This document shows positions 25,601-54,500 of a stretch of 64,000 bases of DNA, piece after piece. The position numbers and the translations under genes were made by a program. Every line of letters begins with the position of its first letter. The first letter of the stretch is position 1. Under the pieces are notes generated by a model. That model was not told where the DNA came from. It made no database searches and saw nothing but the letters and a program-made list of their open reading frames with translations. The DNA comes from Membranipora membranacea (Eukaryota; Bryozoa; Gymnolaemata; Cheilostomatida; Membraniporidae): assembly GCA_914767715.1 (NCBI GenBank), contig OU612066.1:7321001-7385000 (forward strand), read 5' to 3'.

Positions 25601-28600
25601 CAAGGGGTCCCAGCAATGGGCCATGTAAGGCCAATAACCCTAACACGTACGCTGTGTTTCATAGGGTGGCAATGGTGGATTGGAATGTGCTGTGGGATGA
25701 GAGAACACAACTCCGAGTAGTGAATAGCGGGCTATCTAATTAGCGCCATCAACCCATTCTTTTTTTGGGGATGGTGAGATGGCGCAATCGGTTAGCGCGC
25801 TTGCTATTCACTGCCAGGCGATTAGTGCCGCAGGAGTTGTGGGTTCGAGTCCCACTGGGGGAGCTTTCATTGTTGATTGTTCCAGCCCCCAGCACCCACG
25901 GGTGTATACCTCTCCATATTTATTATTCTAATGCACTGCTATTTCATTCACAAACCAGCACATTCTTTGAAATAACTTCTAATTGTTTACAGCTTCGCAA
26001 TAACAGAACTGGCCATACAATGGCGTATATTTTTATATATCCGCTCACCATTGCACATGTCCTCAGCAGTTCTTTTGGTCGGCTTAGGAGCCCGATCACC
26101 AGATTCAATTGAGCCGATAGTCTCATCACCCCTAGAAAATATGACCGAGTACCCTAATCTACCAGCACAGTTGAGTAATTCTGAATGAGATTGTGTAAAC
26201 ATGAGGGAGGGAAATGGAGGAATTATAAGGTTACAGTTCGTACCCGACAAAGCATCATGCTTAGATGCTTTCTTTTTCACACTTGCGTAGCATATGCTAC
26301 GTTGCCATAGGTTGTTTTTAGCTCAATCATGACTGAGCTGATAACCAATCCATGAAACCACTAATAATGTAGTGCTCAGTGCCACTGTTGAGAGCGAACA
26401 GATGCCAGTTTAGCCATTGGCCTGAATAGCCTGGCGGTGAGGTCATTAAGATTTTGGCTAAGCAATTCACTACATCAGCTTCTCATCCCAGCAACGGACA
26501 TTACAATTACGATGAGATGAATAGAGTTGATGATTGACTTTCTATTCATATGGGTACAAAGTTTAGTAACACCTCACTGTCAACAAACACATCAGCTAAT
26601 ATTTTCATTTGCAGAAAATAGGATTGAATGAAACTAGGCTTGGTATGAGCTGGTAACTCCCTGGTATGAGTGTGCTTCGCTTGATGGTCAAGATTTTTAA
26701 TTTATTTGCTGAGTAGGTTTTAATCAGATTGAAAAGTTTGCCAACATGAACAAGATCACTGTGAAGGTCCTCTAGCCAAAACAATTATTCAACAACTTCT
26801 TGGTTCACTAACCTTTTGTCAGTAACCTCAGGTGTTTGAGACATCGAATCATCTGTCATATAGATGTCCTTTCCAGGTACCTCTACTGCGAAACAAATAT
26901 ATTCTACTAACAGGATTTTCCAACACAAAACATGGTGTGACCACAGTACATACACGCAGTCCATGCATTCATTGTTAAAGTGTTTTGTCAGAAACAAAAT
27001 ACACTGTCTGACCCCATGCTGATACCACCACCAACCAGAATATCCCTTATCGTGATAACCCGTCGAGTGTCTACAAAGTATGTCTTAGTTTACGTGCTCA
27101 AACAGTGCCAGAGAAGCTGGTAGTAGCATTTCACTATCATAAAGAAACGATACCACCAGCTATTCAGGGACATTTTGAGTGCTTAGCCTAATACTAGATA
27201 TATCTGAGAGTCTGCAAAGGACATCATCGATAAGGAGACACTTTGGTATTCAATGATACGCCCCCTTTGGGCGTAAAGAGAATAACAGAATAAACAAAAG
27301 TTTCAGATCTACAGTTCTTCAATCACTGATGAGCCATAACAGTTCTCAACAAGCTGATATTTTGACGCATAACAGAAGAAACTTAGGGGAATTTTTGCAC
27401 ATTGTGGTTATCATGCCGGGGATTCCCCTGAACATTGTCGCATATAAAACTACTAAACAATACAAAGGCATGCAGAATTGCTCATTCAACTCAACACAGG
27501 ACAATTGTTGCTGCCTCTGCAAAAATAATTGTATTTGTTATTTATTGGTTTTACTATCCAATCAATCACTATTCAAAGGATTAGGAGATAGAATAATCTG
27601 CAAATGCCTGCTATTTTAACCATACCTTGGCCGCAGTCTGTGGCAGACTAATTTAGACAGACATCTCAAGTGTAACCCAGATTAAATGATAATAGTTCTC
27701 ATCAAAGTTCACTTAAGCCTTTTGACAATGAAAGGATCCCAAACGTAATCTCAACATAGCATTGTTAGCTAAACAACTATAATGAATATGGTGGCAACTG
27801 GCAAGCCTACTCACTGTTAGATGAAGGGAGCTGCGTAACTAGTGCCATGGAATCTACACCAGACCGCATAGTGACCTTCCTGGCATCATTGTCAGCATTG
27901 CACATGCCATCTTCTGAAACAACTATAGATAATCAAAAGCATGAGCATGTGTTTCATCCTCATGCCAGCAAACATGAATAAGTACTATCATAGAGTAAAC
28001 CATATGCCGAGAAACACTTTGATGATAGTAATAATGTCTGTGTTTCTTAGTTGATTGGGCGAGAATAATGTGTAGCCACTGATGAAGTAAGGCCAAGGCT
28101 TACCAGTGCTTAACCCCGGGTAGCAAATAAAATAAAATATATATGGTGCAAACAAAAAGTTCAGCTCACAGTTAAGAGTGGCAGCCTTCCTCCTGCTGAG
28201 ATTATTGCAGAATTTTCTGGGGGGGGGGGGGGTTGGTGGCTTAAGAAAAATCACTCACAATGTTCAGCAAAACAGACAAATACAAATTTTTTTAATATTT
28301 CAGCCTCATCACATGCAGGGTAGGCTTATAAGTTAACTACACAACAGAAGGAAGCCTGATGTGGTAACTAAGTTTTAGTTCAGTTATATTTATAATGTAT
28401 CACTATTGAATTGACGTAGAACATACCGTAATCAAGAAAGCTGAGTCTGCATTTTCTACAGAACTTGGAGAGTTGGCCTTCCTTACTACACTTTCTCTCA
28501 GCTCTGCAACCATCCAAAGGACAAATGAGAAGTTCAGCCGATGAGAAATGTGTGTCACCTGCCTGAGCGTATATTTCGTCAGTGCCTGGAGCTATCTCCT

Positions 28601-29186
28601 GAGTGACTGGCTTTGTGGTATGCTGCCCTGAAGGGGTGACAGCTATGTCATCACTTAATGATTTACTGAAATCCCCAGCTGCAGGTGAGAAATCACTACT
28701 ATTTACCATAGGTTTTGATAGCCCTTGAGGAACAGAGGTTAACGATCCGGGTTGTCCAGTGGCATTGACTGGTTCACCTCGAAGCTTTCCATCACCGCCT
28801 TTTAGATCAGCGCTGAGATTTGTTGTGACATCTGTACGATGATCGATGAGCTCATCACAGTCAGGGCAGTGCTTTGGGTATAATCTTTTCCTGTTTTTGA
28901 TAAGCTTGCCATTACAATCCACATTGGGGCATAAACGAGCTAGTTCTTTCTCCGGCTCTGGGTCAGTTGATGAGCCACACTCAGGACAATGTTTTGGGAA
29001 AACGCCTCTTTTGTTTTTCTTCAATAGCTCATTACACTCAATGTTAGGGCAGCGCCTTTTGTCATCTCTGTTGAGCCCGGTAGGTTCATCGCATTCAGGA
29101 CAAAATTTCGGAAATTCCCCTTTCTTGTTTAGAGCAAGACCTTCGCGGCAATCCTCATTCGGACACTTGGGTCCATCATCTTCCAT
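59..29186 (-). CDS. RNF213: RNF213-like giant AAA+ ATPase/E3 ligase, paralogue A (5' part, spliced)
   Basis: Spliced gene read right to left: ATG at 29186, leaving the window after the AAA4 Walker A exon. I place 52 exons with GT/AG borders, about 10.3 kb of coding sequence (roughly 3,430 codons). Domain order is zinc ribbons, acidic disordered region, CBM20-like module, N-terminal helical arm, degenerate AAA1, AAA2 (RAGVGKS), AAA3 (GETGCGKT) and AAA4 (GKPGSSKS). This order and these motifs are those of vertebrate RNF213 (human about 5,200 residues), a cytosolic ATPase and E3 ligase in lipid-droplet and antimicrobial ubiquitylation. The RING and RZ ligase parts would lie left of base 1. Reading phase was checked at the N-terminal junctions and several others, with no break. 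The 5' portion is some 600 codons longer than in human, mostly disordered acidic sequence and extra zinc ribbons. Identity is firm; individual exon edges are estimates. Confidence 0.93.
1881..4508 (-). CDS. RNF213: Gene A exons: AAA3 domain with intact Walker A and B
   Basis: Exons 4449-4508, 3938-4076, 3687-3822, 3262-3453, 2994-3120, 2400-2516 and 1881-2121. Exon 2994-3120 carries VEIPVIIMGETGCGKT, the Walker A of AAA3, identical in core to human. Exon 1881-2121 carries the Walker B TILFLDEANTTEAIG, then IIAACNPYRRHS, the sensor strand, and GLGYNVGEE. These are the residues expected for active ATP hydrolysis. Exon 3262-3453 holds the NYVLTMDNAKKILAIHQRLR helix that precedes the P-loop. All seven exons match gene B exons in order and size (60, 139, 136/133, 192, 127, 117, 241 nt). 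The introns contain a hexanucleotide satellite and a degenerate minisatellite. Confidence 0.94.
2172..2335. repeat. GGTAGT hexanucleotide microsatellite
   Basis: Gene A intron between exons 1881-2121 and 2400-2516. GGT-rich start, then about 20 tandem copies of GTAGTG (roughly 2204-2328). It produces long meaningless open frames of poly-Val on plus and Pro/Leu on minus; these are not genes. The matching gene B intron lacks it. Confidence 0.95.
2575..2858. repeat. Degenerate TAGTTCTACTTACT minisatellite
   Basis: Gene A intron 2517-2993. Variants of TAGTTCTACTTACTTAG repeat through the stretch. A longer unit also recurs: AGTTCTACTTACTGAGTAGC begins near 2583 and again near 2762, and CTGAGCATTAT appears twice. 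So it is a short motif amplified first and then a unit of about 180 bp. No coding capacity. Confidence 0.85.
4730..6650 (-). CDS. RNF213: Gene A exons: AAA2 domain
   Basis: Exons 6331-6650, 5762-6125, 5506-5605, 5074-5227 and 4730-4898. The Walker A is RAGVGKS, preceded by SRLIRSA. The Walker B-like strand is degenerate (TIHVDIAHEVETGADELLF), as in human, where the acidic pair is also not canonical. In the mammalian structure AAA2 retains bound nucleotide but is not the main hydrolytic site. The following FLSNQLRKVEQSPFCGP and GFRAFVVDFMFRMA segments match the human lid and linker. Each exon has a counterpart in gene B with the same splice sites; lengths are 364/361, 100/100, 154/154 and 169/169. 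Protein sequence is visibly similar but not identical, with changes concentrated in loops. Confidence 0.92.
6978..11862 (-). CDS. RNF213: Gene A exons: linker and degenerate AAA1 region
   Basis: Exons 11621-11862, 10644-10800, 10206-10429, 9903-10052, 9592-9756, 9000-9259, 8755-8857, 8300-8558, 7895-8039, 7597-7718, 7253-7336 and 6978-7084. Landmarks collinear with human RNF213 are AKVILELKEKFLLTGDFSDM (human VKESLGLNGDFSVL), SNFVDLASSTLGEDD (human KVFVDLASISAGEND), LEWLKKVKTHFGNVEI, LNFFTTEQLVVLRKEL (human LNFYTAEQLVYLSTEL) and TRNEVLVCNQQTTVEE just before AAA2. No Walker motif is present, consistent with AAA1 being inactive in the family. Phases were checked through 10644-9592 and agree. 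The donor at 9903 was preferred to a second GT at 9878 because it keeps phase 0. Confidence 0.82.
10801..11620. other. Gene A intron, 820 bp
   Basis: Non-coding between exons 10644-10800 and 11621-11862. GC-rich patches of CCC/GGG-rich sequence (near 10920 and 11370) suggest a decayed transposon, but I could not define ends. Confidence 0.5.
11863..12676. other. Gene A intron, 814 bp
   Basis: No exon, repeat or RNA recognised. A small inverted repeat AGTCTG...CAGACT lies near 12450. Confidence 0.5.
12677..18632 (-). CDS. RNF213: Gene A exons: N-terminal helical arm
   Basis: Exons 18304-18632, 17707-17979, 17210-17422, 16638-16848, 16214-16275, 15764-15987, 15069-15167, 14570-14689, 14217-14373, 13732-14043 and 12677-12958. 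The translation is leucine-rich and alpha-helical, with no catalytic motif (for example WETALRLLSPFFPHNEILP and LSDRLVEVFDKTRMY). It sits where vertebrate RNF213 has its long alpha-helical N-arm, which wraps the AAA ring. Similarity to human is weak but collinear, for example the LTPEQKDIISDKN and ITFAEFDFLEG stretch of exon 13732-14043 against the human GEVTLAEIDVIFKDF region. The 62-nt exon 16214-16275 and the left edge at 17707 are the least certain. Introns here are long (300-800 bp) and mostly featureless. Role is structural by family knowledge; I see nothing enzymatic. Confidence 0.75.
12959..13731. other. Gene A intron, 773 bp, possible foldback element
   Basis: Two copies of the palindrome TTCGTACGAA (13177-13186 and 13658-13667) near opposite ends, with similar AT-rich flanks and short CACGA motifs. 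This may be a degraded inverted-repeat transposon. A 102-codon plus-strand open frame here has no recognisable domain. Confidence 0.4.
15168..15763. other. Gene A intron, about 596 bp
   Basis: Nothing recognised. Introns 16276-16637, 16849-17209, 17980-18303 and 19325-19671 are likewise 300-370 bp without visible features. 16849-17209 is followed by 17423-17706, which carries a 14-bp hairpin at 17554-17586. Confidence 0.5.
18633..19154. other. Gene A intron, 522 bp
   Basis: Between the CBM20 end exon and the next helical exon, which join in frame directly. A short minus-strand open patch around 18800-18960 (KKVKKHFDSTEKRLQS) is broken by stops and may be a repeat relic. Confidence 0.4.
18718..18731. 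repeat. Homopolymer C tract (others at 23144-23157, 28220-28232, 60685-60693 as G)
   Basis: Runs of 9-14 identical C or G bases in introns of both genes. They are simple-sequence tracts; length may be affected by sequencing error. No function is inferred. Confidence 0.8.
19155..20638 (-). CDS. RNF213: Gene A exons: helical linker and CBM20-like carbohydrate-binding module
   Basis: Exons 20355-20638, 20003-20079, 19672-19824 and 19155-19324. The last two form a CBM20-like beta-sandwich. It opens with ITFKVILAEI, carries the aromatic strand YSSWKTLLTL, then WTGNW and YEYKYFIHDG, and ends with the strand leading into NRCLNLS. Human RNF213 has a CBM20 in the same place, with similar YKYVIYNG and YVNRCLF strands. 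CBM20 folds bind starch or glycogen in other proteins; in RNF213 the ligand is uncertain. Upstream, 20355-20638 encodes a charged, probably helical 95-residue segment (FKDIKKKADLAK) that I do not recognise. Phases join 0, 2, then continue. The exon at 18304-18632 follows directly in frame (EKDATVYDGVILMKDE), matching the human continuation. Confidence 0.8.
20745..21035 (-). mobile_element. LINE endonuclease relic inside gene A intron
   Basis: A continuous minus-strand open frame of about 97 codons with no splice-site context. It reads FGLFVIISLDCPKIYHD, then LRNDILDIELLSMSHN and YPDYLYIAGDINANFSTNEN. The GD-x-N-A strand resembles the APE-endonuclease GDFNA motif of non-LTR retrotransposons, and the preceding strand fits the same domain. 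No reverse transcriptase follows. It is probably a fragment of an old insertion. The motif match is short, so a cellular exon is not excluded. Confidence 0.4.
21257..22065. repeat. 141-bp tandem satellite, six units
   Basis: Six head-to-tail units starting at about 21261, 21405, 21545, 21686, 21828 and 21969 (periods 140-144 bp), in gene A intron 20639-22368. Each contains CGATTGAGTTAAAACTTGG, then GACATATACCGAATC, then a GTCACATGACC-like stretch and an AAACAG...GCTGCCGATTA end. Units differ by scattered substitutions. No open frame crosses it. Confidence 0.93.
22369..27922 (-). CDS. RNF213: Gene A exons 2-8: acidic, low-complexity N-terminal linker
   Basis: Seven exons: 27815-27922, 26813-26885, 26049-26131, 23943-25049, 22947-23009, 22674-22781 and 22369-22449. 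Phases fit end to end (for example the phase-1 G of the 83-nt exon plus AT of the 1,107-nt exon make GAT). The 1,107-nt exon encodes about 369 residues rich in Asp, Glu, Ser, Asn, Gln and Lys (for example DEDEPMDDDSSSDNE) with no recognisable fold. Human RNF213 has a comparable unstructured Glu/Ser/Lys-rich stretch between its zinc ribbon and CBM20 module, so this is probably a flexible tether. An optional 15-nt microexon (25499-25513, phase 1-1) could insert five residues before the large exon. Function is not inferable beyond linker or interaction surface. The small exons are supported by frame compatibility and splice sites rather than by homology. Confidence 0.7.
23312..23830. mobile_element. 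Long-TIR MITE, copy 1 (gene A intron)
   Basis: About 519 bp with long imperfect terminal inverted repeats (roughly 150 bp each). The left end starts TAGGCAGTTTTCTGAGCTCT and the right end is its inverse, finishing GCTCAGAAAACTGTCTAT. Inside both arms are GTTGTCCTCTCTCCAGTTTG and its complement. A central part with no coding capacity separates them. The flanking dinucleotide looks like TA, compatible with a Tc1/mariner-type target. A second copy in opposite orientation lies at 52468-52982 in gene B. Confidence 0.75.
25774..25864 (+). mobile_element. tRNA-derived SINE head (Pol III A and B boxes)
   Basis: Contains an internal Pol III promoter: A box within TGGCGCAATCGGTTAGCGCG (25780 onward) and B box GGTTCGAGTCC (about 25842-25852), with a perfect T-arm stem GTGGG/CCCAC. 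The D-arm GCGC...GCGC also pairs. The segment between is longer than in ordinary tRNAs, as in class II (Leu/Ser-type), but the acceptor ends do not pair. A functional tRNA is therefore unlikely and a SINE head is favoured. It sits in a gene A intron, antisense to the gene. The 3' body and tail were not delimited. Confidence 0.5.
26132..28426. other. Gene A introns around small N-terminal exons
   Basis: Three introns (26132-26812, 26886-27814, 27923-28426) of 500-930 bp separating exons of 73 and 108 nt. No repeats beyond the G tract at 28220 were recognised. A plus-strand open frame at 27329-27619 has no recognisable domain. Confidence 0.5.
28427..29186 (-). CDS. RNF213: Gene A exon 1: start codon and tandem N-terminal zinc ribbons
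   Basis: First coding exon, 760 nt, opening with ATG at 29186 (MEDDGPKCPNEDC). Three near-identical zinc ribbons follow with C-x4-C-x15-C-x2-C spacing: cysteines at residues 8/13/29/32, 46/51/67/70 and 86/91/107/110. Each has the pattern CPN-x2-C, then K-x-[FY]-P-K-[FH]-C-P-[ED]-C. After about 110 Ser/Thr/Gly-rich residues a fourth, more diverged ribbon appears near the exon end (CPLDGC, then FCRKC). Vertebrate RNF213 starts with one short zinc ribbon of the CPSC...FCSQCG type, so this position fits the family and the number is expanded. The exon ends in phase 1 (donor at 28426/28425) and joins the next exon in frame. A CT-bounded splice acceptor-like site near 29217 suggests a short 5' UTR segment in the same exon. 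Start choice rests on the first ATG just before ribbon 1. Confidence 0.85.
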
Positions 29187-29691
29187 GACCTACTGATTAT
29201 TCATAAGGCCTATAACCTGTAAAAAGTTAGCTTACATTTTAAAACCTGTTAAGTTAATTATCTACCAGAATCTAGCAACTTTATGAGGTCACTAATCTTG
29301 CACATTATGTTCGCGTCATTGGGCTCAGATGAATTATTCATTTTAGTCATTAGTTTTGATGCGAATAACACCAGCCAAAAGCAATCTAACGGGCCTATTT
29401 GACTAGTGAAATGCGTCTTAACCTTTAGTTCCATAAGTTGAAAGCTATAGCCAATCATCCCACTCAGTCCTACTGAAGTTTGACAGGTGGAAAGAGCAGC
29501 AACAGCTCATGTATAGTATGGCCTATTGAATAATCCAGCAAGAAGACGGACAGTGATCGAGTGCCAGCAGGGAGAATGGAAGGATAAAAACAGTACTTGT
29601 AAGTCTATTATACTATTCCTCCCTTTGCCTGATTCAATGTTACCTTTTGCTAGTTTCAACCAAGGAAATACTCTTAGTCCATTTATTTTAG
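29187..29691. promoter_or_regulatory. Upstream region of gene A (presumed promoter and 5' UTR)
   Basis: About 500 bp between the gene A start codon and the plus-strand LINE. No convincing TATA box or initiator was found. A CT boundary near 29217 could be a splice acceptor for an upstream noncoding exon. If this is the promoter it is confined between a LINE insertion and exon 1; otherwise transcription starts further right in or beyond the retrotransposons. Confidence 0.3.
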
Positions 29692-31128
29692 TTGCAGACC
29701 AAGTTGAAGCTTAACAAACTTACTTTTACATATATCCCACTTCACATTGATCTGAATACTACAACTCAACTATTACATGTCATTCATTTTGCAACCCAAT
29801 CCCTTGATCAGCACAAAGATTACCATATTATTAGCTTTGATTTTTCAAAAGCCTTCGATAAGGTGCCTCATGCGCTGCTTATTCATAAATTGAAACATTA
29901 TAAGTTTGATAGTAAATGCATTGAATGGATTGAAAGCTGGCTGACTGATAGGACATGTACTGTTAACGTTAATGGCAATAAATCTAGTATATTTCATGCT
30001 TCATCTGGTGTTCCACAGGGATCGGTCTTAGGACCACTTTTGTTTCTGATATACGTTAATGACATCTCACAGTCAATCCAAAACTCTGACTGCAGGTTAT
30101 ATGCAGATGACACCATCTTATGTTCAGAAGTCATAAATGATGCTAAATCTCTTCAAGATGATATAAATGAATTGAAAAGTTGGGCTGATAAATGGGGTAT
30201 GATTTTCAACCATAAGAAATGTGTACATGTGAAAGTAGGAAGTGATCAGCCAGATATAAGTCTGAAGCTTGGTGACAATGTCATACCGCACTCAGACTCT
30301 GTCAAGTACCTTGGTGTGACCATCCATTCCAACCTGAAATGGAATGCACATATATCAAATGTAGTAAAGAAGGCGAATCGTTCACTCGGTCTCATAAAAC
30401 GAGGACTCAAAGAGGCCCCGGTTAAAACCAAACTACTAGCTTACAAAACCATGGTTAAACCCATCTTAGAATATACATGTCAGGTGTGGTCGCCACATAA
30501 CATTGGTCTGAATAATAGCTTGGAAAAAGTTCAGAGAAATGCAGTAAAATGGATCTATCATTTAAATAAAACTGACAGCGTAACTGAATGTATGACTAAC
30601 CATGCTATTCCCCTTTTGTCTGACAGGAGAGAAGCAATAGATATTACATTTCTTAGAAAAGTGGAAGGAGGACTGTTCGACATAAAATTGAATACCTATA
30701 TACGCTTTGTTTCATCTACCCACGACAACAGAGGTAAAACAATTAGTTGGCAGCATAGTTGTGATGCATGGTCACATAGCTACTATAATAGAATGAGGCC
30801 AGAGGTAAAGGTATATTTTCCTCCAAATTAACCTGACAACCTTCTAACAATTAACTAACATCTTAGCATTACATGTACATATCAAGTACATGCCGATACA
30901 TATCGATTAACTATGGTCAACTTGTTTACTATAAATCCTTTCTCTTCATAACTGGGCAGGCAATTTATTTATGTTCAATTATTGGTGTATTTTTAACATT
31001 TTTTCTGTAAATTAATCACCTGCAATACCAGTACGAAATACCCCTCCGAACACACTGAAGGTATATTTATCCAAATGTGCCCATGATGTGGACGGTTTGG
31101 ATTAAGTTGAAGGTAAGGTAAGGTAATA
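29692..31128 (+). mobile_element. 5'-truncated CR1-like LINE with AAGGT 3' tail
   Basis: Open frame 29692-30831 covers only the reverse transcriptase from just before its second block (TTTQLLHVIHFATQSL) onward: ISFDFSKAFDKVPHALL, SGVPQGSVLGPLLFLIYVND, LYADDTI (about 30097-30113), VKYLGVTIHSNLKWNAHI and ILEYTCQVWSPHN, to a stop at 30829-30831. Endonuclease and N-terminal RT are missing, the usual result of incomplete target-primed reverse transcription. About 275 bp of 3' UTR follows, ending in three AAGGT repeats (31110-31125), the short-repeat tail typical of CR1-like elements. Sequence differs clearly from the minus-strand LINE, so it is a separate family. No stop interrupts the remaining frame. 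Confidence 0.85.
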
Positions 31129-31317: not shown

Positions 31318-34086
31318 TTAACTTGTGGTACCCTTGGTGTCCCTGATTGTCCTCGGAAGGAAACTTCCATAGTAGACTTTTGTAGATGCATATACAGAGT
31401 TGAGTTTGCCTCTGGTGGCAGATCTTGTTTTCATTGTCATGTTCTGTTTGTCGTTTGATACTTCATCATATGCGAGAGCTAGTGAGCTGTGTTGCTCCTC
31501 TTCTTGAAGGATCTTCATCAGAAGGGTTAGCCTGTGATTTCTTCTCCTGTTCTGTAGTGTTTGGAGGCCAAGCTCAGAGCTGGCCTCAGTAACGCTTTCT
31601 CTTCCTTTTAGGCAGCTGATAAATCTGACAGCTCGATGTTGAATCATTTCTATTGATTCAATGTCCTTGTTGAGCATTGGGTCCCAGACTGTATCAGCAT
31701 ATTCGAGTATTGGGCGACATAGGCTGGTATATGCCAGTAGGCGGCTCTTCTTGGGTGCATTGTATAGTATGTGTTTGATGGATCCAAGAGCTCTTGAGGC
31801 GCTGTCTCTCTTTAGTTTTATGTGCTGATCAAACTTTAGGTCAGACTGCATCATCACCCCCAAATACTTTGTGGAACTGTTCCATGCCATGCATGTGTCG
31901 CCCAGTTTGTATTGTGGCTTGAACTCTTGGTCTCCGAAGGCTATCATGTGGCATTTACTTTCATTGAACTGCATTTTCCATTGAACCGACCATCTGTGGA
32001 CAGCATCAATGTTGTTTTGGAATATAGCTGCATCTTCGTCAGTTGTGACTTGTTGATAGAGCAGTGTATCATCGGCATATAGGCTAATGTTACAGCTTAC
32101 CACTGTCGGTAGATCATTGATGTAGATCAGAAACAGTATGGGACCGAGGACTGACCCCTGGGGCACTCCTGAAGTCACCAATAATTCTGATGAGGTCTGA
32201 CCTTTGATGACCACTCTCTGTCTCCTGTTGGTGAGGAAATCCTGTATCCAGTTAACCAGCTGAGGGTGGATACCAGGAACTTCTTTCAGTTTCTTCATTA
32301 GTAGGGCATGGGGGACCTTATCAAAAGCTTTCTTAAAGTCAAGCACTACAGCATGTGTGGTTTTTGAGGACTCAGCTGTTTTGGCGAGGTCATGGAAGGT
32401 AGCACAAAGTTGTGTTTCGCAGGACATACCTCTCCGGAATCCATGCTGTCTGCAGTGTAGGAAGTCATTCAGCTTTTGGTTCAGATAGTGGAGAATGATG
32501 TGTTCCATCATTTTGCAGGGGATGCTGGTGAGCGATATTGGACGGTAGTTGTTGGTCGATTCCTTGTCACCCCCTTTATGGATTGGTGTGACATATGCCA
32601 GCTTCCACTGCTTGGGTAGTTGTCCAGCTGTAATTGATGCTTGGAATATGTGTTTTAGGCATTCGGCTGACATATCTGTATCAACGAGGAGATCTGGTTT
32701 ACGTATGGCGTCTGGGCCAGGTGATTTCCCGTTTGGCAGATTCTGAATCAGCTTCACAAGACCTTCAGTGGTGATCTCAATTGGATCCTCCTCTGATGTG
32801 GTCATTCTCTCTGGTTGCACTAACTGTTGGTCGGGGCAGAACTGGGCTTGAAAGTGTTCATTCAGAATCTCAGCACATTGTGTTTCGTCTTCAGTGATGA
32901 TGCCCCTTCTATCAGCCAGTCTGATGCTTGGTCCGTCGTTTGATTTGGCATGTTTTAGATGTTTATAGAAGGGTTTTGAATTTCCTCTTTCTAGTGGTTT
33001 GCAAATCTTGTCGACGAGGTAGTCTTTCTTTCTTCGCTGACACTCTTGTTTGCTGGTACGCCTTTCTGCACTATATTTCTGAAGGTAGAACTTATCACCA
33101 GTTTCTCTGTACTTTCCCCAAGTTTTCCTCTGCTTTTCTATTAGTTTGTGTGTCACTTTATCCATCCATTCGGGCCATTTCTTATTCTTAGGAGGGAGGG
33201 ACTTTGTGGGTATATGCGAGTTCTGGGCGTCGGAGAGTTTCACAGTGAAGTGGTTCCACATCTCGTCAGGGTCTCTCATCTCGGCTAGCTCATCTACTAC
33301 CATTTGCAAGGAGTCTCGATACCCTTCTGAATCTACTTGTCTGTATAGTTTGACTACTCTTGGCTTTGATTCTGCCACCTGTGGCTTGTTTTGGTCAAGT
33401 GAGGCAGTGATCAGAAAATGATCGCTCAGACCTGGAGACACTATGTCAACATCTTTAACAAGACCCTCTGTGTTGGTACATATCAGGTCCAGAATATTGC
33501 CATGTATGTGAGTAGGCTGTCTAACAAGCTGTTGTAGGTTGTTTTCCTGTAGCATGGTCAGGAAGTCTGCATGGGTTTGTTTGTACCTAGCATTGGGTTT
33601 TAGGGAGCATGATGCCCAGTCTATTTCGGGAAGGTTCATGTCTCCCATTAGGATAATCCTATGATCTGTGTAGTGATTGGTTACCTCTTCGAAGGAAGCT
33701 CTCAATTTGCTCATGTTTTGTAGAGCAACACAGGGTCTGTAATAGCAACAGATGATTACTTTGTGGTCGAGCTTAACAGCAATAATTTCCTCATCTGTAT
33801 TGTTTATCTTTACTTCGGATGGGTTGAGATCATTATCTATGGCAATGAGGACTCCTCCACCTCTGATGTTTCTGTCCCTCCTGAACACCGCCTTGTGTGC
33901 CTCAGGGATCACAGATTTACTGGGTATAGTACAGTCGAGATGAGTCTCAGTAAGGCAGACAATGTTAAAATCAGTTATAAGGGATTGTAATACTGCTGTT
34001 TTTCCTTTTGCTGATCTTGTGTTGGCCAAGAGCATACTTAGATGGTCGTTTCTTTTTCCTTTACTTCTGGTTTCAGGAGCTCCCAA
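31318..34086 (-). mobile_element. CR1/Jockey-type LINE ORF2 (endonuclease + reverse transcriptase), intact
   Basis: Uninterrupted 922-codon frame. The N-terminal APE endonuclease shows LANTRSAKGK, TETHLD near residue 46 (catalytic Glu), GGGVLIAI, MGDMNLPEIDW near 147 and LSDHFLI near 220. The reverse transcriptase shows NGKSPGPDAI, YRPISLTSIPCKMME, VLDFKKAFDKVPHALL, SGVPQGSVLGPILF and LYADDT near residue 670 (plus-strand bases about 32065-32078). The C-terminal end has LPRTIRD, typical of non-LTR elements of the CR1/L2/Jockey group. No stop or frameshift interrupts it, so the copy may be young. It lies between the two RNF213 genes on the same strand. ORF1 was not recognised, and the 3' UTR ends somewhere in 31130-31317. 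Confidence 0.88.
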
Positions 34087-34880
34087 TTTCCCGAAAGTTG
34101 TTTTTGTTCTATTTGTAGGTTCCGAATACGATATTCGGCTGTGACATCAGAGCCTTTAAGCTCACGGATTTTCTCTCTCAGCACCCATTCTTGATTTCTG
34201 ACTAGGATATACTTTCTCACCTGATGATTGATATGTTGTTGTGTTGTTGACAAAGAGATATGGTTCAAACTCGACGTTGTAAATGAACTAAAAGAGTGCC
34301 TGATGGTGGTGGCTGCATGTTGAAGAGCACAACATGAACATGAAATAACAAGATAGGGATTTCCCCACTTAGACCTACAAATACACATTGAGGGAATCTA
34401 AGCGCACAACATGTGATTTGTTTTGCTTATTTCTACATCACGATGTCTTAGTGTCCGAGATAAAAAGGCTACATATGCTTTACAGAAGATTCGGCCAATG
34501 AGAAAAGAAGAGAATAGAGCCCGCTAATTGGTCGAGGTTATGTATAAGGAGTTTTCTTCTTTATTATGTGGGAAGAAAACTCAAATTTATATAGCCATTG
34601 TCCTTATTCCTTTTGTGTGTTAAGTTATTAACTAAAACTGTCACCTGCCCCTTTTCTTTGCTTCTCATGCACACCTTTGCTTGAATCCCAGCCAGCTATC
34701 AGAAGCTTGGAAAATATTATATAACCATGGAGTAAAAAAGTAGCGTATATAGGGCTCACTGACACAAAGTTGCCTTCAATTTCTTCAGAGTAAAATAGAG
34801 CACTATATTCATGCTTCAGCATTCTGTCATCTTCAGAATAAATTCTTCAAAGACAAATTGACTGTACGCAAAACTGAGCG
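34087..34880. other. Intergenic stretch between gene B 3' end and LINE ORF2
   Basis: No conserved gene is seen. The left part carries a minus-strand open frame (34388-34038) that overlaps the start of the LINE ORF2 and ends in a charged, Glu/Lys-rich, possibly coiled-coil stretch. It may be the end of an upstream LINE frame. The 5' limit of the retrotransposon is therefore not defined and probably lies here. Confidence 0.35.
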
Positions 34881-39552: not shown

Positions 39553-42500
39553 CTGTAATAATATGTGCATTCTGATGATGAACAACATCTGTCTTGGATC
39601 TTCAACCTCACTTATTTGTTAAACAAGAAATTTAACCCTTACCATTCCTATTACCATCCTTAACAGCATTGCCATGTCTGGACATGATAAGTTACCCGAT
39701 CTCATATCTAGACTGCACAATTTTGATGGGATTTTATACCTGTCATTTAGATTGATAGCTCTGTTATTTGGAAGAGCTTGATGGTTAGCTCCACCTATCG
39801 GCACTCCACACTCATTACAAGTCTTAGTCTCCATCGGTTGTCCACACTGTGTTACAGAAAGAAATGAAACATACAGGGGTCATATGCGCACTTCCAAGTA
39901 TATACCTTTGACATTAATTGAAATTATGTGCTACTGCTACTTGTTATTCAATACGATAGTGTCAACCCTAATTGTGTATACTCATTCAGCAGAAAAGGTT
40001 AGTCATGCTTATTCTACGAAGAAGTCCTTCACAAGATATTATATCTCTTTCACAAGCTATATTCTGATATAATCAGTTAAGGTATATCTCCCCAAAATCA
40101 AGAAATCCACTGGAGATATCGTTATCAATAGGTCCTAAACAAAAAGTTCGATAGAGATGGATGGGGACATCCTCACTATAATCATTTGTGAGTGTGTACT
40201 TACATTGTCAACAACATATAGATGTCCATTAGGGCAATCTGAAAGAAAGTGTTTAACAACAAATTATTTATCCGCCACTATGATTGAGATTTATCATTTT
40301 AAATGCATTAAAATAATAAGGTTATGACGCTTGAAAGGAATAGCTTTTGTTTTGCATTAACTTCTCTTTCTGGGCACTCCCGTTGGTCCAGATATAACAA
40401 AAATGCTCTTAATTCTGGGAAGTGGTGAAACTAGGAAATTGAAATGCCAAGACTGTAAATTTGGGATAACTTACGAAATATGGTGACATTAGTTCCTACT
40501 ATAGTCGCTTTGAAGACAGCAGCGTATAATTCGACTTGATTATCAACCATAGTGGGTAGGAAATGATTGGCAGCCTCTAGTGGCTGGTTGATGAGCTCAG
40601 CCAGAGGATTCAGGTCTGATGTCTGCTGATTGTTACACATACAGCTTAGAAGATTCAGCACCAGCATCGAGAGGTTAATACCTTGAGCTGTGTTAACATC
40701 CATTTCAGCAGGTAGGCCTCCATCTCTAATGACCATACGAAAGGTGGCCTGAAAATAGATACATTTAATATACTTTTATTGTCATTCTACATCATCTTTA
40801 GGAATGTAGAATACATAAAGGTACTGGTGGAAAATTCACCAATAGAGGCAGAAAATTTAACAGAGGCATAACCAAAAACTTGTGTTAGAACAGGGCAAAC
40901 AGATTTCACCTTATATCAAACATCTCTCATAGTAATGGTGGCTTTCTTTCCACAAATACATATTTAATTGATTATTTTTGGGGAAGAGGAGGGCAGCGTT
41001 GTTTGATTTTTAACCATCTAGTGTCAAATAAGGTTTGACCTAATCTGATTATTTTTCAAGTTGAAAAGATGGGAGGCATTGAGAAAGCTTGTCCAAACCA
41101 TACCTGATGTTTTCCATGGAGCTGAGTGTTCAGTTGCTCCCAGAGGCCGTTTGTGATATTTTGAGGTACCGGAGTTCTTTGAGCAAAAGTACGGGTGATT
41201 CGGGTAAAGACTACACTACACAGTAGCCAGTCAGATTGACATGCCTATAAATAATCAAAAATATTAGTAATGCAAAAGAAATGTAGTGATTCAAATCAAA
41301 TTCTATGCTTTAGATAATGTTTACTTGAGGGCTCAGGATTAACCTCCCTCCACTGTTCTACAATTGATTGATTATTCCTTGTCTCATCGATCACTAGCAA
41401 AGCCCTTAAAGACAAGCAAAGGCAAGTTCTGGCCCATTAGATATATGTTCATGTGACAGGCCTAGATAACAGGTTTTATGCTTGAAAACTATACCATTTT
41501 CAGCTGATTGACAGCATTAGTGAAGGCATCTTGGTTCCCTGAGGCAGTTATAACATTGTCAATAGCTGTCTTTGCTGCTCTGTATTCTTGACCTCCGTAT
41601 ACGGATAGAACATCTGGTACAGTGAATGATTCCAGGTCTCTCTTCACATCATCAGGTATAAGGTAGTTGTGTGGTGTGTTCATCAAATCTTTGATGAAAC
41701 TTTCTCCTTCAGTGGCATAGAGCAAACGAGCGGTATAATACCTAATAAGTTGAAGAAAAAGTGGTATAATTAAATCATTTCTATGAGGGGTATACGTATA
41801 ATGGTTAGTATTTGAATGATCTTTATGAATCAAATTTCACAAATAAACCTACCCAGGTTGAGGGTTGCCATTTCGTGCAGAGTCTTGTATGAATTTTCTG
41901 AGAGCAGCTTCGGTAGCCTGTAATTCTAAAGTGCCTTGTTGCGGGGTGGTCAGGTTTAGTTTCTTAACACCAAAGCTAAGAATACACTGTATCTCAGCTA
42001 CACTACTGAGCAGATCAACATTAGGCACATCGATTCTATCAGTCATCAGCACAACATCGTCATCATTAGTTTGGTTTACATCTTCGGTCGCGACATTGGG
42101 CATAAATATGTCCTAAAAGAACATAACATAATTTTTTAAAGTAAAAATCATGTTTTATCAGAAAAAAAAGGATCATTTGCTTGACTGTAGAAGCAAAACA
42201 AAGCGTCACTTGTTCATATTTCAAATCACTGCACAAGTTTTTTTTACCAAAAAAAGGTTAAAACATTAGCGCTGTCATGAGATGTGTGGACAACTTTAGC
42301 TGAAGGGGTCATCTAAAAATGAAATCATTATGAAACGTAGGCATGTCGGAATAGAGCTGTCTACATATTTCGGGTGTTACTTTACTTGGTGGTGGTTGTT
42401 TCAGTTTTACCTTTCTGCAGTCCATAAGGAGTACCATGGTTTGGATCTTCTGTCTTACATCATCACCCCACTCTACTAGCAGATGGTTGAGATGCTCTTG

Positions 42501-45500
42501 TACACGTTCACTTTGGGTGCACTGTATCAGTAGCTTGAGAAGGAATGATCGCAGTACAGGGGTTGGATCAACTACGTCAGCAGTGTTATATAGGCTGAAA
42601 ACTCGAGTTCCAGCACCAACTGTGACACACTGAAGAAGCCACTGTATGACATCTTCATCCGGTTCCTCATCTGGGCCAAATACAACCTCAGACACAAAGG
42701 CCATGAAAAACTTGTTCAGTCTTTTTCTCAGCCATCTCAGCTCTTCCAGCTTAGAGTCACTGTAAATATACAAATCAATATCACAAACAATTTAATCTTA
42801 AAGGTCCCCAAGCAGGGGTCACCATGAAGACAAATCTTAAGCACACTATCATGCGGAAGAGTCTTTGTACCATTCATACTCAGTTTCTATTGGCTAAGGA
42901 CTGAGCGTAAGTCAACTACATCTACTCTTCCAAATTATATATTTACTAAGCTATATATTTAGCTTTCTAGAAGTAGATACAGGAACTTACTCAATGTGAT
43001 CTTTAGCGGGGTCGTATATGAACCCTTCTGGTATCCGGCCGTCGCACTCTCCTTCTGGACACAGCTTCACTTCTTTCACACAGGTGTCACAGATCATGTG
43101 ACCACATGGCAGGCGTACAGGTGAGTGTAATGGGTGAGTACACACTGGGCAATTCTTCGGACATTTCCTAAAAGACAAACCGATATACACATTTAAACCT
43201 TCTGATGAAAATCCATCATTGGTCTAGAACCCCTCACGTGTATTCTTATGTTGTCAGAAACACACTGCAAATGCCTGTGTGTACTAATCTGTTACAGATG
43301 AGTCGGAGCTGAAAACAGATATCAGATCTCATATGAGGGATACATTTGCTATGGTCTGCCCATGTTTGAACAGACAAGGTTTGGATTCGACTTGACTTGG
43401 ATTTGCCTTCTGATTTGTCCAGGGATATCCAATAAATGTGCGCATGCTCACATTTGCACCTATATTAAATATACCTAGGCCGTGTAAAGCATAATGCCAA
43501 ACCGTGCAATAACTGATAGTCTAAATCACTGAATATAAATCAGTGGTCTAAATATATTCCATTCCCTTATGCTTTGATGCTGTCAATAGATGATCATGAA
43601 ATAGCCAAGTTTGACCCTTTGTAATAAAAATATGCTTCTTTGATCATTATCTCATCGAAAGAGGACACAGTGTTTGAAGAAGATGAGATGATGAGGATGC
43701 AAACTATAGATTTATGTTGCAAATCGATTCATGTGGCAAATCTGTTTATGAGGCAAATCTGATTTTTAATCAGCCAAATTTCCATCTGAATATCCGACCG
43801 CCTCACACCCATGGCCGTAAAAAACCTCCCGTATATACATGCGCAACAAATAAAACTTATAAAACGCTCACAACAACATTTATTTACTCCGGTGTTTAAT
43901 GTATACTTACGGATAGAGAGCTTGCACACCCTCGATGACGGTCGTCTGAAGCCAATGGACCACCTGCTCAAACGTCTCAAAGTCTTGGAAACAGTTACCA
44001 GTCACAGTCTGAAAAAAGAAACTTATACAAGTATTTGGAAACACCACCGCCGCTGTTAACACCATGGCATACACATGGACATGATTACAGTAACAGAATA
44101 ACCAAGAAAATTAATGCAGACCTTGATAAAAAATGAGAGTTTGTGTGGTTTGCGCTTCTTCTGGCCTTCTTTATTTATCACAGGCTCAGTTGGGATGATG
44201 ACATGCTCCACAAATAACTTCTTTAGAACCAGTTTCCACCACGTCTCTCTAAAACAACAATCACACTATCATTATATATATATATATATATATTATATAT
44301 TAAACTGCATAGATCACATGACACCGCAAAGCTGTTATAATGGTGATCACAGTAATAATTCATTAAATTTCGAAAACCCAAAAAAAACCTTAATTATGGC
44401 AATTATTATGACTAATTCATAGAATACAAAATAGTATTACGTGGTGCCAGCCCAACAGTAAACCCGAGTGACCACTTTCAAAAATTAAAAACTAAATGAA
44501 AGGAACTTGGACAGTAACAAACAACCGTTGTACGAAAATCTTGTGTCATACCACATGTCATGTGAGAAGTTGAGCCAAATACAATGAAAGACAAAAATAT
44601 ATCACAGCATGGCCCATTTCATCTATGCGGATAAATACGCTCACGTCCACGGGAAGTGAGCGGATAAATACGCTCACGTCCACGGGAAGTGAGCGGATAA
44701 ATACGCTCACGTCACGGGAAGTGAGCGGATGAATACGCTCACGTCCACAGGAAGTGAAAGTTTGAGAGAGTAGAAATCTGATCAATATCTCAGATGCAAA
44801 AGTTTACCTGCACTGTAATATGATTCCACCTTCATCTCTCTGATCTAAAACCTTGGAGATAATATATTTAGATTTGTCCACTCTGTCAACCCATTTCTCG
44901 GGGTCAGTGAGGAGAGCATTGATCTTGATGTTGGATAGATACACTAGTAGGCATCGTAGAGCAACAAGGTCACATGCCTACAAAAAATAAACCCGATCAA
45001 GAATCAACAGTTGAAATAGTTTTAATCCTGAACTCTGATGATAAGTGAAGACAGCATCCACAATGCCAGTGTTGGAGTTTCTGTTTTGGACATGACGTGT
45101 GCCATGATCAGTTGAGATCTTGCCTTTTCCTATCATAAGATGTCATAGTGTTGGAATCTTGGCTTCAATATAATTCAATGCAAGGGCAGAAGCTATCAGG
45201 TACAAGCATGTTTTGTGAAAACTCAAATCCGTAAGATAGAGTGACCACTTACAGTATTTTGATCTAAATCCTTCCTAACATTGCCAGCAAGGTCGTTTCC
45301 ATCTTCATCCTTCCAGGTTAGATGTAAGATGGCCGAGAGGTTTGAGAATGTTGACTTCAGTGCGTCGTAGGCCAGATGGATGTGAATTATGTCCTTGTCT
45401 TGTACTTGCTTCTGTTCCAGATATGTCATGATCGACATGCACACAATCTGTAATTAATTGTCATAGATTATTATATTTCTTCTCAAGAACTGACTGGGTT

Positions 45501-48500: not shown

Positions 48501-51500
48501 GAATCAGACCTATGGAGGGTTATGTTAAAATCCCCCAAATTGCTAGCAAGCTTGCTTCTCATAAAGATGCACAGTATAAATTGGTCCAGATAGTAGATCA
48601 AGTAACCATAGCGTCATTATAAAACATCTGGTCACTAATTACTTACCTTGGTAACCAGAGAAGTTGCGGCCCCTGGGCAGGTTGAGTAACAGAACAGTAT
48701 GTGTACAATCATCTGCCACCTCACTCTCTCTCTGTACAATGAACCTGACAGAGTCTAAGAGTTCAGTATTCTCGTCAGCAGACTCACACTGTACAAGCAG
48801 CAGCTTCATCTTGTGATCACTTTGTCTTACGTAAAATGCCCTGTGTAATATACAGACTCATGGTTTTACAATAGCAATACAAACCAAATGAGCGAATTTA
48901 CAGCATTGACTTGTCTTTGAACAAAAACAGGAAGAAAGATACTGTGAGCAGCTCTCCATACTTAAAGTATAGCAGGCTCTGGAATCAACATAATAGATAG
49001 CGTCGGTCACATATATTTAACTAGTCATCATTTATTAACAAGGTTCAGGTGAAAACCCAAAATAAAATAGAGGAAAATCCCCACCTTATCGAGTCAGTAA
49101 ACTGGTCTTCTTTGAGGAAATCTTTGAGATAGATATTGTACACATCTACTTGCTGGGAGCCATTACTGTTCAGATTATCTTTGAGTATGTCCACATCGCG
49201 CTTACTCATCAGCTCAGCAAATGATGTCACCTAAACAAACATTTAAAATAGGCTAGTGAGCCTGGAATGAACAACAATAGCCATTTTCCAAGAAGGCTCT
49301 TCTTTGCAGTACAGGTTCTTTATTGGAGTAAGAAACAGGTTTTTGACATTATGAATTACACCCCCTTTTCCTGCTCGTGAAGCTAACAATCACAGATGTT
49401 ATATGTAGAGACACGGGGGTCAGCAAATGTTGACTTTTTATATACCGTTGGAAAGCTCTTGAAACGCGTTGCGTCATTTGACGTTGCGCTATCAACTTAA
49501 ATACTGATATTTTGCTCCAATTCTAAGGTGTTTGAAATGATACAGTGGCAATGTGTTGAGGATTGCTGGTTTAAAACTAGATGGTATAAGTAGAGGACCC
49601 ATCTTTATCACCCATTATTTCATTATTACCGCTTGACGAATGGTTTTTTTTTACGCCTGACACTTCATATATTTTGAGTGTAAAATATACGTTTAATCAC
49701 CAGCCAATAAAATGAGCATAGCACACTTTGTATCAATTAATTTAGACTTACTCCACCATTTACACCCTTGGCTAGCCCAACAAATAACTTAGGGCTAAAT
49801 ATTCAAATTTTTTTCAGAGTTACCTTCCCTATGAAATGTGTAGTTTTCAGAGAAAATGTGATTATTAAAAAACGTCATTAATATTGCACCAGGAGCCTTA
49901 TATTGTATGTAAAATATGTGTTTACAGCTATAGCAAGGTGCACTGGTGCACACGTTCTTATCTGTTTTGGCCTGGAGTGCTAGTATAGCTCTATGTAGTG
50001 AAAAAACCACATAATAGGACATGTCAAAAGAAGAGAGTGACCCAACCTGCTCGTCACTAATGTTGTGATTCCGTGATGACATCACACTCTTTCTCGTCGT
50101 AGTTAATTAGAGTAAAAAATACAAATTGCCATAGAAACCACAATTTTAAATATAATACTCTAATATTTTGGATTTGAGGTGTGGAAACTGTGTTTGATCA
50201 GTGTACAAAGTTCTGATAAAATCCGAGCACCCCGTGTCTCTATCTTAAAGCACACTCGAAAAAGAGTTATGGCGATAGGCTTGGTCATATAAAATCACAA
50301 ATGCTGATTGCGATTTCATTTCTTGCTTGGCTTATAAATGTGGCTTTCACTACTCTACTCAAATCTTAACCGCTAAATAATAAAACGCTGATACTGTCTC
50401 ACCTGTATGAAAAGTGATTCCTCAGCACAGAAGTTTAACTCATTCTCTAGGTACTGTAGTAAAGTCTCATGGTACTGATCACGTAGATAGATTTCCTGAA
50501 TTGCTTTAGCTTCATGCTTCAGATCGGTTCGTTCAAGTCTCATCACCGATTCCGCAGTGGCACAGAGAAGCATGTAGTACTTAGATCTCTCATACACCTG
50601 GAATACCGACATAAACACATGATATGGACTTTTGTAGAAATTAAGCTACGCTGTGGAAATTTAAATACTGCATGATTGTTTTCCTCTTTTGGTGTTGAAC
50701 ATTTTGACCATAGCAATCTTAGCGCGCAACAACTGGCTGATGAGGCCTACGCATGACTTGGGTAAGTGTGTATGCTTCATTATGTAGCCACATTTTAGCT
50801 TTATTTTTTAATGCTCATATCCCAAAAAATAATCAAATATCATTCGGCTTCACTTTTTAGCATAAAGAAACTACCTTCTGTAATTGCTGCTCTTGATCAT
50901 TAGTTTCTGGTGATTCAGCCTGCTCAGCGCAGACAACAGAGGTTGCTTGCATGACGGCCAGAGCTGTAGTCTCTGAGCTGTATCCAATAAAGGATGTCTC
51001 TCTGGTAGAGTTCTCAAAGTACTGCCTGTTGGAGATAGCCAAAGTAATCATTTTAATATTAATCATCTTGACACCAGATTAGAAGCAATGTGGTTATTAC
51101 TTTGGAAAAATGATGGTCAAGCATTAATGTCTGACTACAGACATTAGTGTGGGCAGATGGTGATAGGGGTTAATAAAATGGGAAAAGTAATTTGATCCAA
51201 TTCTGTGAACAATTTCAAATCAGTGGTATTTTGTGTCAACATTTAACCAGCCTCAAATCAATAACTTAGAGTATTTACCTGTTTTCCAGAGCGACAGAGT
51301 CTACCTTCCACTCATAGTCTACTGGTATCTCAGTGTCACACGCAGTATCACCTTCCATCACATCACACTTAACTTCTTCATCCTCCTCTGTTCTTTTGTC
51401 TAGAGCTTCCTGAAGTCTCTCCTTACAGCACGGACCTACGTAGTGTCTCCAGCACGGTAGAGGATATGGTTTTTCAAGTCTTTCCCCGCACATATCACAA

Positions 51501-54500
51501 TCAGCAGGGCACATCTTTTGTCTACAATGAGATGTTATAAGAAATCCATCTAGAGATCAATGCATGAATCAATCAATCTTTCTCCACTTTGTCAGACTAC
51601 AATGTTATTGTTTTATAAGTAGATAAGATTATTTCCTTACTGCATATTCCTCTGCGGCTTCACAAACTTCTTGATCCATTCCTCTAGCTCTCTCTTGATC
51701 ACTTTCTGATCTTTAGATAACAGAGATGTAGCTGACACGTAATGCTTCTCAAGACGATTGATGAGTGGAATCGGAAACTCAGAGTGAACTTTATTCTTAT
51801 CCGCTATCACCACCAGTCTGAAATTGATGAAAAATTCAGTTGAAGAATATGTCTTAGCAGCGTAGAAACAGATAATGTTTGGCATTATTTTGCTTTATAT
51901 CAGTTTTAATTCAGAGCCTTCTTCAATGATTTGCTCGTGGTTTTAAAAGGCACTACGGATGAATGGAATGAAGTTGAAGAGATATGAATTCTTGACCGGT
52001 TACCACTGGGATTGCTGTCCAAGCATTTTGTGTTTCTCATCAATGACATGAGAGTGAAATTTTTAAAACTTACAAAGATGAAGGATATGATCCAAAAACT
52101 GTTTGCTAATTTTACCTGAAATTCTCATTGACAAAGGTCTTCACCCGGTGGGTACCAAGCCCAAGGTCCACAAACTTTCTGTCACCCCATGTGGAGAAGT
52201 ACTGATTGAGGGCATCATAGAGACTCTCGTACAAGTCATCTAGGTTCAGTAGGATCACAGGCTTTCCCACATCCATGCACGTCTTAATTCTGTATATGTT
52301 ATGGCATACCTGCAACATTGTATCATAAATACACCAACCCTTCATCCTGTGATGTTTATTCTTATATCCCAATGCAGATTGTATCACAGTCGTTTCACTA
52401 GCCTCTAACCAGAAATTGATTGTGTTTGATCTATTGATCACGCTATGGCATCACTGTATATAATCAATAGACAGTTTTCTGAGCTCTTATTTATGCCTCA
52501 AGTTGGAGTTGTCCTCTCTCCAGTTTGGTACTTTTAACCCAGGCCGCATAGAAAATACCTGCTGAAAGAGGGTGATCTTGAAAACCAGTTATGTTAGGAT
52601 AAAAACGATTTTTGATTCAGAATCTGCACCACTGAAAACCCTGTGAGACAGGGTATCAAAATCATTTGAGGCTTGAATGTTGATAAATCCTAATTTCAGC
52701 AACGAAACTCATGAAAAATTCTGCCAAATTGTCCGCAAAACAGGCAGAAAATGCTATAATTGACTATCCAAATACTAAAATTATTTCCCAAACTATGTCC
52801 ACATGAGTTTACAATGTTGCAGATTATGAATCAAATATAAATTTTATCCTAATATAAGCGGTTTTCAAGATTACCCTCTTTTCAGCACATTTTTCCTATG
52901 CGGCGTGGGTTAAAAGTAACAAACTGGAGAGAGGACAACTCCGAATTGAGGCCTAAATCAGAGCTCGGAATACTGTCTATAGTGGCTAATATTTTTTACC
53001 TCTTCATGGTACAAATTATCAACCGACCTGTTTTATATTGTAAAATAATCCCTAGGCCTATTGATAAAAAATGTATGCGATAACTTATTGTTACCTGAGT
53101 GTATGATACATCCTCAGGAAACTTGCTGCCGAACACAACTTCTGGCTGTCGATCATGTGACTTAAATTTGTCTAATATAATACTGAGCACACTTAGATTC
53201 TCAGTAAGGATCAACAGGTAACGACTCTCAATTCTGTAAATGACACAAAACGACATACTGTGATATTATGATTTCCTGCAGAAAAGTTTGATATAAAGCC
53301 CGGGAGGTTTGTATTACAAAAATACTGAGCCTCCAAATCCTCCCCTCACCCAGTCAGACAACAGTGTTAAAGTATTCACGAGGCATAACACAAAGAGTAG
53401 TTCTAAGTTTATATACCTATTTTCAGATTTCCACTGAAAGCCGAGTGGTAGTGGAGTGTTACAGCCTTCGACAGTACATTGATATTGTTCTCCTCTGTCT
53501 AATGCTGCCTGTATCCGCTCCTGACAGCACACACCGACATAATGAGCTTTACACGGCAGAGAGAAGAGTTTACTCAACTTCTCACCACACACATCGCAGT
53601 ATCTAAAAGGTATGAGAAATTACAATAAAAAGAAACATTAGGTGAGAGTATAAATTTAGATAATCACTTAGTTCCCATGCGTCAATTGCATATCAATTTC
53701 ATGAGGTATCGAATCACGGAAACGACGGGGGATCAATTTTGGTTGACATCAATTGATGTTCCTTCACTCGATATAGGCTACAATATAGCTTGAAGCAGCG
53801 GCCTGACTAGCATAAATGACAGTGACACGGGAGGCCCAGGTTCAAATCCCGATCACGGCATATCTTTTTGAGGTTCATCATCATAGGAACCTTAAGCATT
53901 CCATACAAGTTTAGAGGGATGAACTTCATTCAACGTGCCAAATCGATGCATGGAAACAGAGTGATAAATCAGAAAAACTTTGATGTCCATACTGTTTAAA
54001 GTTGGCATAAACCTCACATTCTGACAAGATTGTCTTCTCCTGACAAACTTGATTCTATGAGACCAATAGAATCGATTGGGGGTCTTCCATCCTCCTGCAT
54101 GGCTAATGTGCCCAAAGTTGGACAGTGGTCACTGAATATGTCCATCGGGTCGAATCCTGATTCTGGATCATAACCACCAAAGTTACGTCTGATGCTGTGT
54201 TCTAGTTGGTTTCTGTTCAGTTCTCCAGTTCTGGAGGCAAAGTTCACAACCATCTTCATCAAACTGCAGAGAGAAACAAAGAATGTCAATTGAGCAATGG
54301 GTTTATTGTTATAACCGCTGTAATATTTAAGGCTAGGAATTAGCCATTTTTCAAATCTTTTAGCTATCTGACAGGAGCTTGTTGAGTCTTAAGGAGTACT
54401 ACATCGTGTTTATTTTCTATTTCAGTAGCAGAGTATTCTTACCTGTAGAAATCTCTGAGCCCGAAGAATTCGGTGAGATCTCGTTCTTCTGGTTTCTTAG

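Follow-up and report, generated by a model that had tools for sequence, protein, structure and literature searches.

We analysed 64,000 nucleotides of contig OU612066.1 (assembly GCA_914767715.1, forward-strand positions 7,321,001 to 7,385,000) from the bryozoan Membranipora membranacea, a stretch referred to below as the window. Its minus strand carries a long homologue of the immune ubiquitin ligase RNF213, here called gene B, and the AAA5 region of gene B contains two RING-like exons, E1 and exon E2, that are missing from the solved RNF213 structures. The two exons are a real, well-formed insertion pair in this known family, and they are clearly homologous to each other. Their RING ancestry and fold are supported, though not proven, by sequence comparison and predicted models. 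We see about an even chance that they represent a duplicated zinc module of RING origin, which entered the gene in the form of phase-2 cassette exons and would dock near AAA4 and AAA5.

Two added exons in the AAA5 region of gene B

A home-made exon chainer gave a model of gene B with 52 exons encoding 3139 residues, running from 63744 to 35823, in which borders far from E1 and exon E2 are mostly unverified. The gene extends past the right edge of the window, with its 5' part beyond base 64000, and its 3' end was searched for only down to 35500. The AAA5 open reading frame matches RNF213 chains in the PDB with an expectation value (E) of 1.7e-22, and the spliced AAA5 region matches an RNF213 chain at E 5.5e-68, as expected of a homologous AAA5. 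The RING region matches RNF213 chain 9jwg_A at E 1.1e-12, which marks it as the RING of the E3 module, and the RZ finger matches PF20173 (ZnF_RZ-type) at E 8.6e-20, above the family cut-off. We take PDB entries 8s24, 9jw1, 9jwg and 9jta to be human RNF213, and 6tax, 6tay, 7oik and 7oim to be mouse RNF213, from residue numbering and PMC7311170 (the mouse cryo-electron microscopy study).

A preliminary description of this DNA had given E1, exon E2 and the genuine RING exon of gene B as exons of 186, 243 and 177 nucleotides with phase 2 on both sides, and its borders, lengths and phases are all confirmed, as are GT-AG splice sites. E1 (53602-53417) and exon E2 (51521-51279) have AG/GT borders and are entered and left in phase 2. 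Joined to their neighbouring exons they form a single open frame of 487 residues, the first piece of which extends upstream of its modelled border. The exon chainer chose both in each of its runs and the RING exon in the first run only; the second run also left out exon 53233-53095. Since E1, exon E2 and the RING exon belonged to the training set of the chainer, its choices do not count as independent support.

When E1 and exon E2 are removed, the alignment to a human RNF213 chain is gapless at the site of exon E2 and also at that of E1 (E 4.6e-86, residues 2-328), where the stretch just upstream is poorly conserved. For the mouse chain 6tay, compared by matched lengths only, 272 query residues correspond to 265 chain residues and 324 to 311, which leaves no space for the inserts. 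Because no gap against the RNF213 structures remains after their removal, both exons are additions, E1 of 62 codons and exon E2 of 81. Their absence from the human and mouse structure chains agrees with the earlier view that human RNF213 has only short linkers at these places, and the possibility that vertebrates share the inserts came out negative for the two species covered, human and mouse. The proposed placement, with E1 opening AAA5 and exon E2 following its FPIPLINRLEKHY stretch, is also supported. In sequence one exon lies at each end of AAA5L, whose precise limits in gene B we infer. Among the titles and abstract openings listed from an open-access subset of the literature, no paper describes extra RING-like inserts in RNF213, which is a weak absence; an excerpt of PMC11573180 names RNF213 only within a cited reference.

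Over 68 aligned columns E1 and exon E2 are 47% identical. Their score was reached by none of 5000 shuffles, by none of 5000 with the cysteines (Cys) fixed and by none of 5000 with Cys masked, and this homology rules out that they are chance open frames. The coding sequences of the pair also give the sole significant blastn match among the E1, exon E2 and RING regions (E 6e-4). In an ungapped core of 34 codons 22 residues are identical, only 9 of them with the same codon; 11 of the 34 codons differ at the first position, 8 at the second and 19 at the third. Nonsynonymous divergence (Ka) in this core is 0.27, while for synonymous divergence (Ks) the method returned -1. The pattern fits an old divergence under protein constraint. 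Given 47% identity and 19 of 34 third positions differing, the doubling was not recent.

Likeness of the inserts to RING fingers

The ligand pattern of both inserts is C-x2-C-x11-C-x2-H-x4-C-C, which corrects the x10 and x3 spacings reported earlier. Both keep C-x2-C-x11-C, the His and a tail of the form C-x3-[IL]P-x2-[FY]. Thirteen RING domains served as yardsticks, 11 of them as sequences not fetched from a database. The first spacing is common among these (11 of 13), and the tail is rare, being found outside the inserts in three: the own RING of gene B, human RNF213 and RNF146 (one of the 11). The preliminary description had made this tail common to E1, exon E2 and the own RING, and so it is. 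As last Cys pair, E1 and the own RING have C-x4-C and exon E2 has C-x8-C; the other two tail-bearing RINGs have C-x2-C. The CP-x2-C-x2-C opening, which the earlier description extended to E1, is present in exon E2 and the RING exon but not in E1. The genuine RING of gene B is itself unusual in its C7-x4-C8 pair, compared with the C-x2-C of human RNF213.

The centres are different. Where the RING exon reads C-G-H-M-I-C-D-T-C (C-x-H-x2-C-x2-C), the inserts read C-x2-H-Y-V-G-x-C-C, with the fifth ligand position lost, an adjacent CC pair, no C-P-x-C and a spacing that departs from the C3HC4 cross-brace. The last Cys is followed by Asn in E1 and Asp in exon E2, not by a linchpin Lys or Arg; the own RING likewise has Asp at this position. 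According to excerpts of the respective papers (all citations by PMC number from here on are to excerpts), mouse RNF213 has Leu in place of the linchpin (PMC7311170), and the human RNF213 RING is atypical, without a linchpin, and of a function termed elusive (PMC12440826). Because of the lost fifth ligand, the CC pair and the missing linchpin Lys or Arg, we call the inserts RING-like and probably RING-derived. As RING domains in the strict sense they were rejected on profile, spacing and linchpin. The interpretation first offered therefore survives in part: gene B has extra, mutually related, RING-like exons that human and mouse lack, but the wording of three RING-type modules is not supported, given no Pfam RING match, a missing canonical ligand position and no linchpin.

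Most sequence scores favour the own RING of gene B. The score of exon E2 against the RING exon was reached in 0 of 5000 shuffles and 4 of 5000 Cys-fixed ones; for E1 the counts are 18 and 69. A joint profile of exon E2 and E1 scores 33.4 against the own RING (P 2.3e-6), the highest of the 13, followed by TRIM25 (27.1) and RNF168 (24.2), both among the 11. No free shuffle out of 200 (maximum 27.5) and no Cys-fixed shuffle out of 200 (maximum 27.3) attained the own-RING score; hhalign returns a probability of 89 for the match. Pairwise, the own RING is the closest of the 13 to exon E2 and the second closest to E1, behind TRIM5 (also one of the 11). Descent of E1 and exon E2 from the own RING exon of gene B is moderately supported by these comparisons, together with the tail motif and the C-x4-C spacing.

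A number of results weigh against this origin. With Cys masked, the local similarity between inserts and RING is at chance (2408 of 5000 shuffles for E1, 3015 for exon E2). The human RNF213 RING has a profile score of 12.6, lower than the median of 13.6 for Cys-fixed shuffles of the own RING, and ranks 10th of 13 pairwise for E1 and 9th for exon E2. With E values up to 10 allowed, Pfam yields no RING family for either insert; the sole matches are to DUF4428 (E 0.0053) and to Asp23 (E 0.094), each below its cut-off. The joint profile gave eight weak matches to PDB sequences, none of them RING, and Foldseek with the insert models gave nothing at E <= 0.001. The predicted folds are RING/U-box-like, which speaks for the origin, but their scores are modest (all VIA Z < 8), and the five models of exon E2 score 83, 62, 48, 41 and 40, only one being confident. 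The introns flanking E1, exon E2 and the RING exon have no mutual similarity by blastn at E < 0.05.

The RING exon matches 11 Pfam families, all RING-type by name (best E 1.1e-5), with only PF00097 above its cut-off. NCBIfam returned one weak match for E1, another for the RING exon and none for exon E2; the scores lie far below cut-off. No relatives turned up when viral contigs were scanned with exon 52309-52119, the joint alignment of exon E2 and E1 (A1), exon 51816-51643 and alignment A4, or when prokaryote genome contigs were scanned with A1. One prokaryotic locus found with A4 (L001) was rejected, since its match of 26% identity falls within short bacterial open reading frames that look unrelated, around an LYESLYD stretch.

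Origin and possible working of the inserts

The own RING exon of gene B is the most likely source of the module. One copy would have been altered first, losing the fifth ligand position and gaining the H-Y-V-G-x-C-C signature, and the altered copy would then, by parsimony, have been doubled; E1 and exon E2 have the same odd centre, so the change would have come before the doubling. Phase symmetry had been read as a mark of exon duplication. All three exons are indeed 2-2, but the argument is weak and we discount it, because 7 of the 52 modelled exons are also 2-2 and any cassette inserted into an intron is necessarily symmetric. Exon shuffling that brought in another gene's zinc finger (a TRIM- or TRAF-like RING, or a different treble-clef finger), with the likeness to the own RING being that of RINGs in general, is possible but doubtful, since exon E2 and the joint profile favour the own RING and the inserts have the tail motif, and E1 the C-x4-C spacing, in common with it. 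The cassette origin is compatible with a further scenario, which we hold to be evenly balanced, that the inserts are old in many invertebrates and were lost, or never gained, in the vertebrate line, in which case they would be ordinary variation within the family. The comparison made here covers solved RNF213 structures, taken as human and mouse, E1 and exon E2 are strongly diverged (47% identity; 19 of 34 third positions), and RNF213 is reported to be expanded in symbiotic bivalves (PMC9993606).

Two repeats lie in the introns of this region. An intron between E1 and exon E2 holds a fold-back inverted repeat of about 510 bp (52467-52980), similar to a miniature inverted-repeat transposable element, with arms of 101 nt (88%) and 75 nt (84%) and no tie to the duplication. 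Two adjacent 66-bp direct repeats (44627-44757; 95%) with a mutual reverse match of about 75% lie in the intron that precedes the RING exon.

Mouse AAA5L carries the IR5 insertion, which extends to the active site of AAA4 and is expected to impede nucleotide binding (PMC7311170), and the ligase is activated when ATP binds AAA3 and AAA4 (PMC12075652). E1 and exon E2 are probably non-catalytic docking or regulatory modules that flank AAA5L near the AAA4 ATP site; judged by their position, they may project from the ATPase ring as first suggested. They would bind zinc and present docking surfaces, possibly paired with each other in the manner of RINGs. The partner could be an E2 enzyme, ubiquitin, a protein of microbial origin or a second molecule of RNF213; its binding would shift the AAA4/AAA5 interface and so tune the ATP-dependent switching of the ligase. 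As both exons can be skipped in frame, putative alternative splicing could turn the modules off.

Other workings were weighed against non-catalytic docking. Active RING ligases, which would give the protein three RING activities, are highly improbable: the predicted models are RING-like and the eight Cys/His come in C3HC4 order, but ligand five is missing by position, the CC pair is adjacent, Asn or Asp follows the last Cys and there is no C-P-x-C, and RNF213 can largely dispense with its RING when acting as a ligase (PMC7311170, PMC11549300). It is quite unlikely that the inserts are oligomer contacts, with RING-like pairing between molecules aiding RNF213 coats on microbes. Some RING folds do pair. 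RNF213 coats are cooperative (PMC11549300). A more elaborate proposal, which we rate as rather unlikely, is that the own RING exon was copied twice into the ATPase ring to make a paired pseudo-RING sensor on AAA5. Such a sensor would read E2 enzyme, ubiquitin or RING-targeting microbial proteins and gate the AAA4 site, perhaps acting as bait or as a splice-controlled switch; the microbial protein IpaH1.4 binds the human RNF213 RING at its E2-enzyme face (PMC12440826).

Other elements of the window and comparison with known systems

Features of gene B around the inserts, with positions in the window
Feature	Position	Strand	Basis or remark
Exon preceding E1, end of AAA4	54018..54263	-	5' border from gene model only
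E1, first RING-like insert (186 nt, phase 2-2), start of AAA5	53417..53602	-	
AAA5L exon IESRYLLIL...SYTQ, between E1 and exon E2	53095..53233	-	dropped by second chainer run
AAA5L exon with LLNLDDLYESLYDALNQY and likely IR5 equivalent	52116..52309	-	IR5 name from PMC7311170 (excerpt), place presumed
AAA5L exon with FPIPLINRLEKHY, immediately upstream of exon E2	51641..51817	-	
E2, second RING-like insert (243 nt, phase 2-2), following the AAA5 FPIPLINRLEKHY stretch	51279..51521	-	
Exon following E2, FIGYSSETT..., probably AAA5S	50875..51025	-	
Genuine RING exon of gene B, 177 nt, C3HC4 with C7-x4-C8	42991..43167	-	Pfam and 9jwg_A alignment
Two exons of the RZ finger, 40238-40204 and 39846-39740, borders from gene model	39740..40238	-	PF20173

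A second RNF213 gene, gene A, lies head-to-tail with gene B on the minus strand (59-6097 and 28380-29189) and leaves the window at its left edge before AAA5. It was traced by 14 tblastn pieces from AAA1 to part of AAA4, 55-95% identical to gene B and in some cases spanning introns. The 28380-29189 segment is likely its N-terminal exon and contains some four repeats resembling zinc ribbons (CPN-x2-C ... FPK-x-CPEC), of which the final one is degenerate; human RNF213 has a single such motif. Between the two genes lie a retrotransposon open reading frame with endonuclease and reverse transcriptase domains, of the non-long-terminal-repeat type (31318-34146, minus strand), and a separate reverse transcriptase fragment (29692-30831, plus strand). 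A transfer RNA scan of the window found none.

RNF213 is the major susceptibility factor for Moyamoya and acts as a ligase against a broad range of microbes, while the role of its RING is not settled. A naturally occurring protein with RING-like copies at the ATPase ring, next to the inhibitory IR5, would allow a direct test of how ATPase and ligase communicate and of what RING-like surfaces do in RNF213. The inserts differ from RING domains of the TRIM, TRAF and RNF125 types and from U-box domains in lacking the ligand spacing and the linchpin of active RINGs. The E3-RING domain of RNF213 (PDB 9jta) also differs from the inserts, having the canonical C-x-H-x2-C-x2-C centre and a place in the E3 module rather than in AAA5. 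Human and mouse RNF213 (mysterin) remain the closest counterparts of gene B as a whole. The AAA4-AAA5 and RING regions align, and in gene B Pfam recognises the RZ finger as well as an AAA domain; unlike gene B, the human and mouse proteins are without E1 and exon E2, and the RNF213 chain 9jwg_A has C-x2-C where the RING of gene B has C7-x4-C8.

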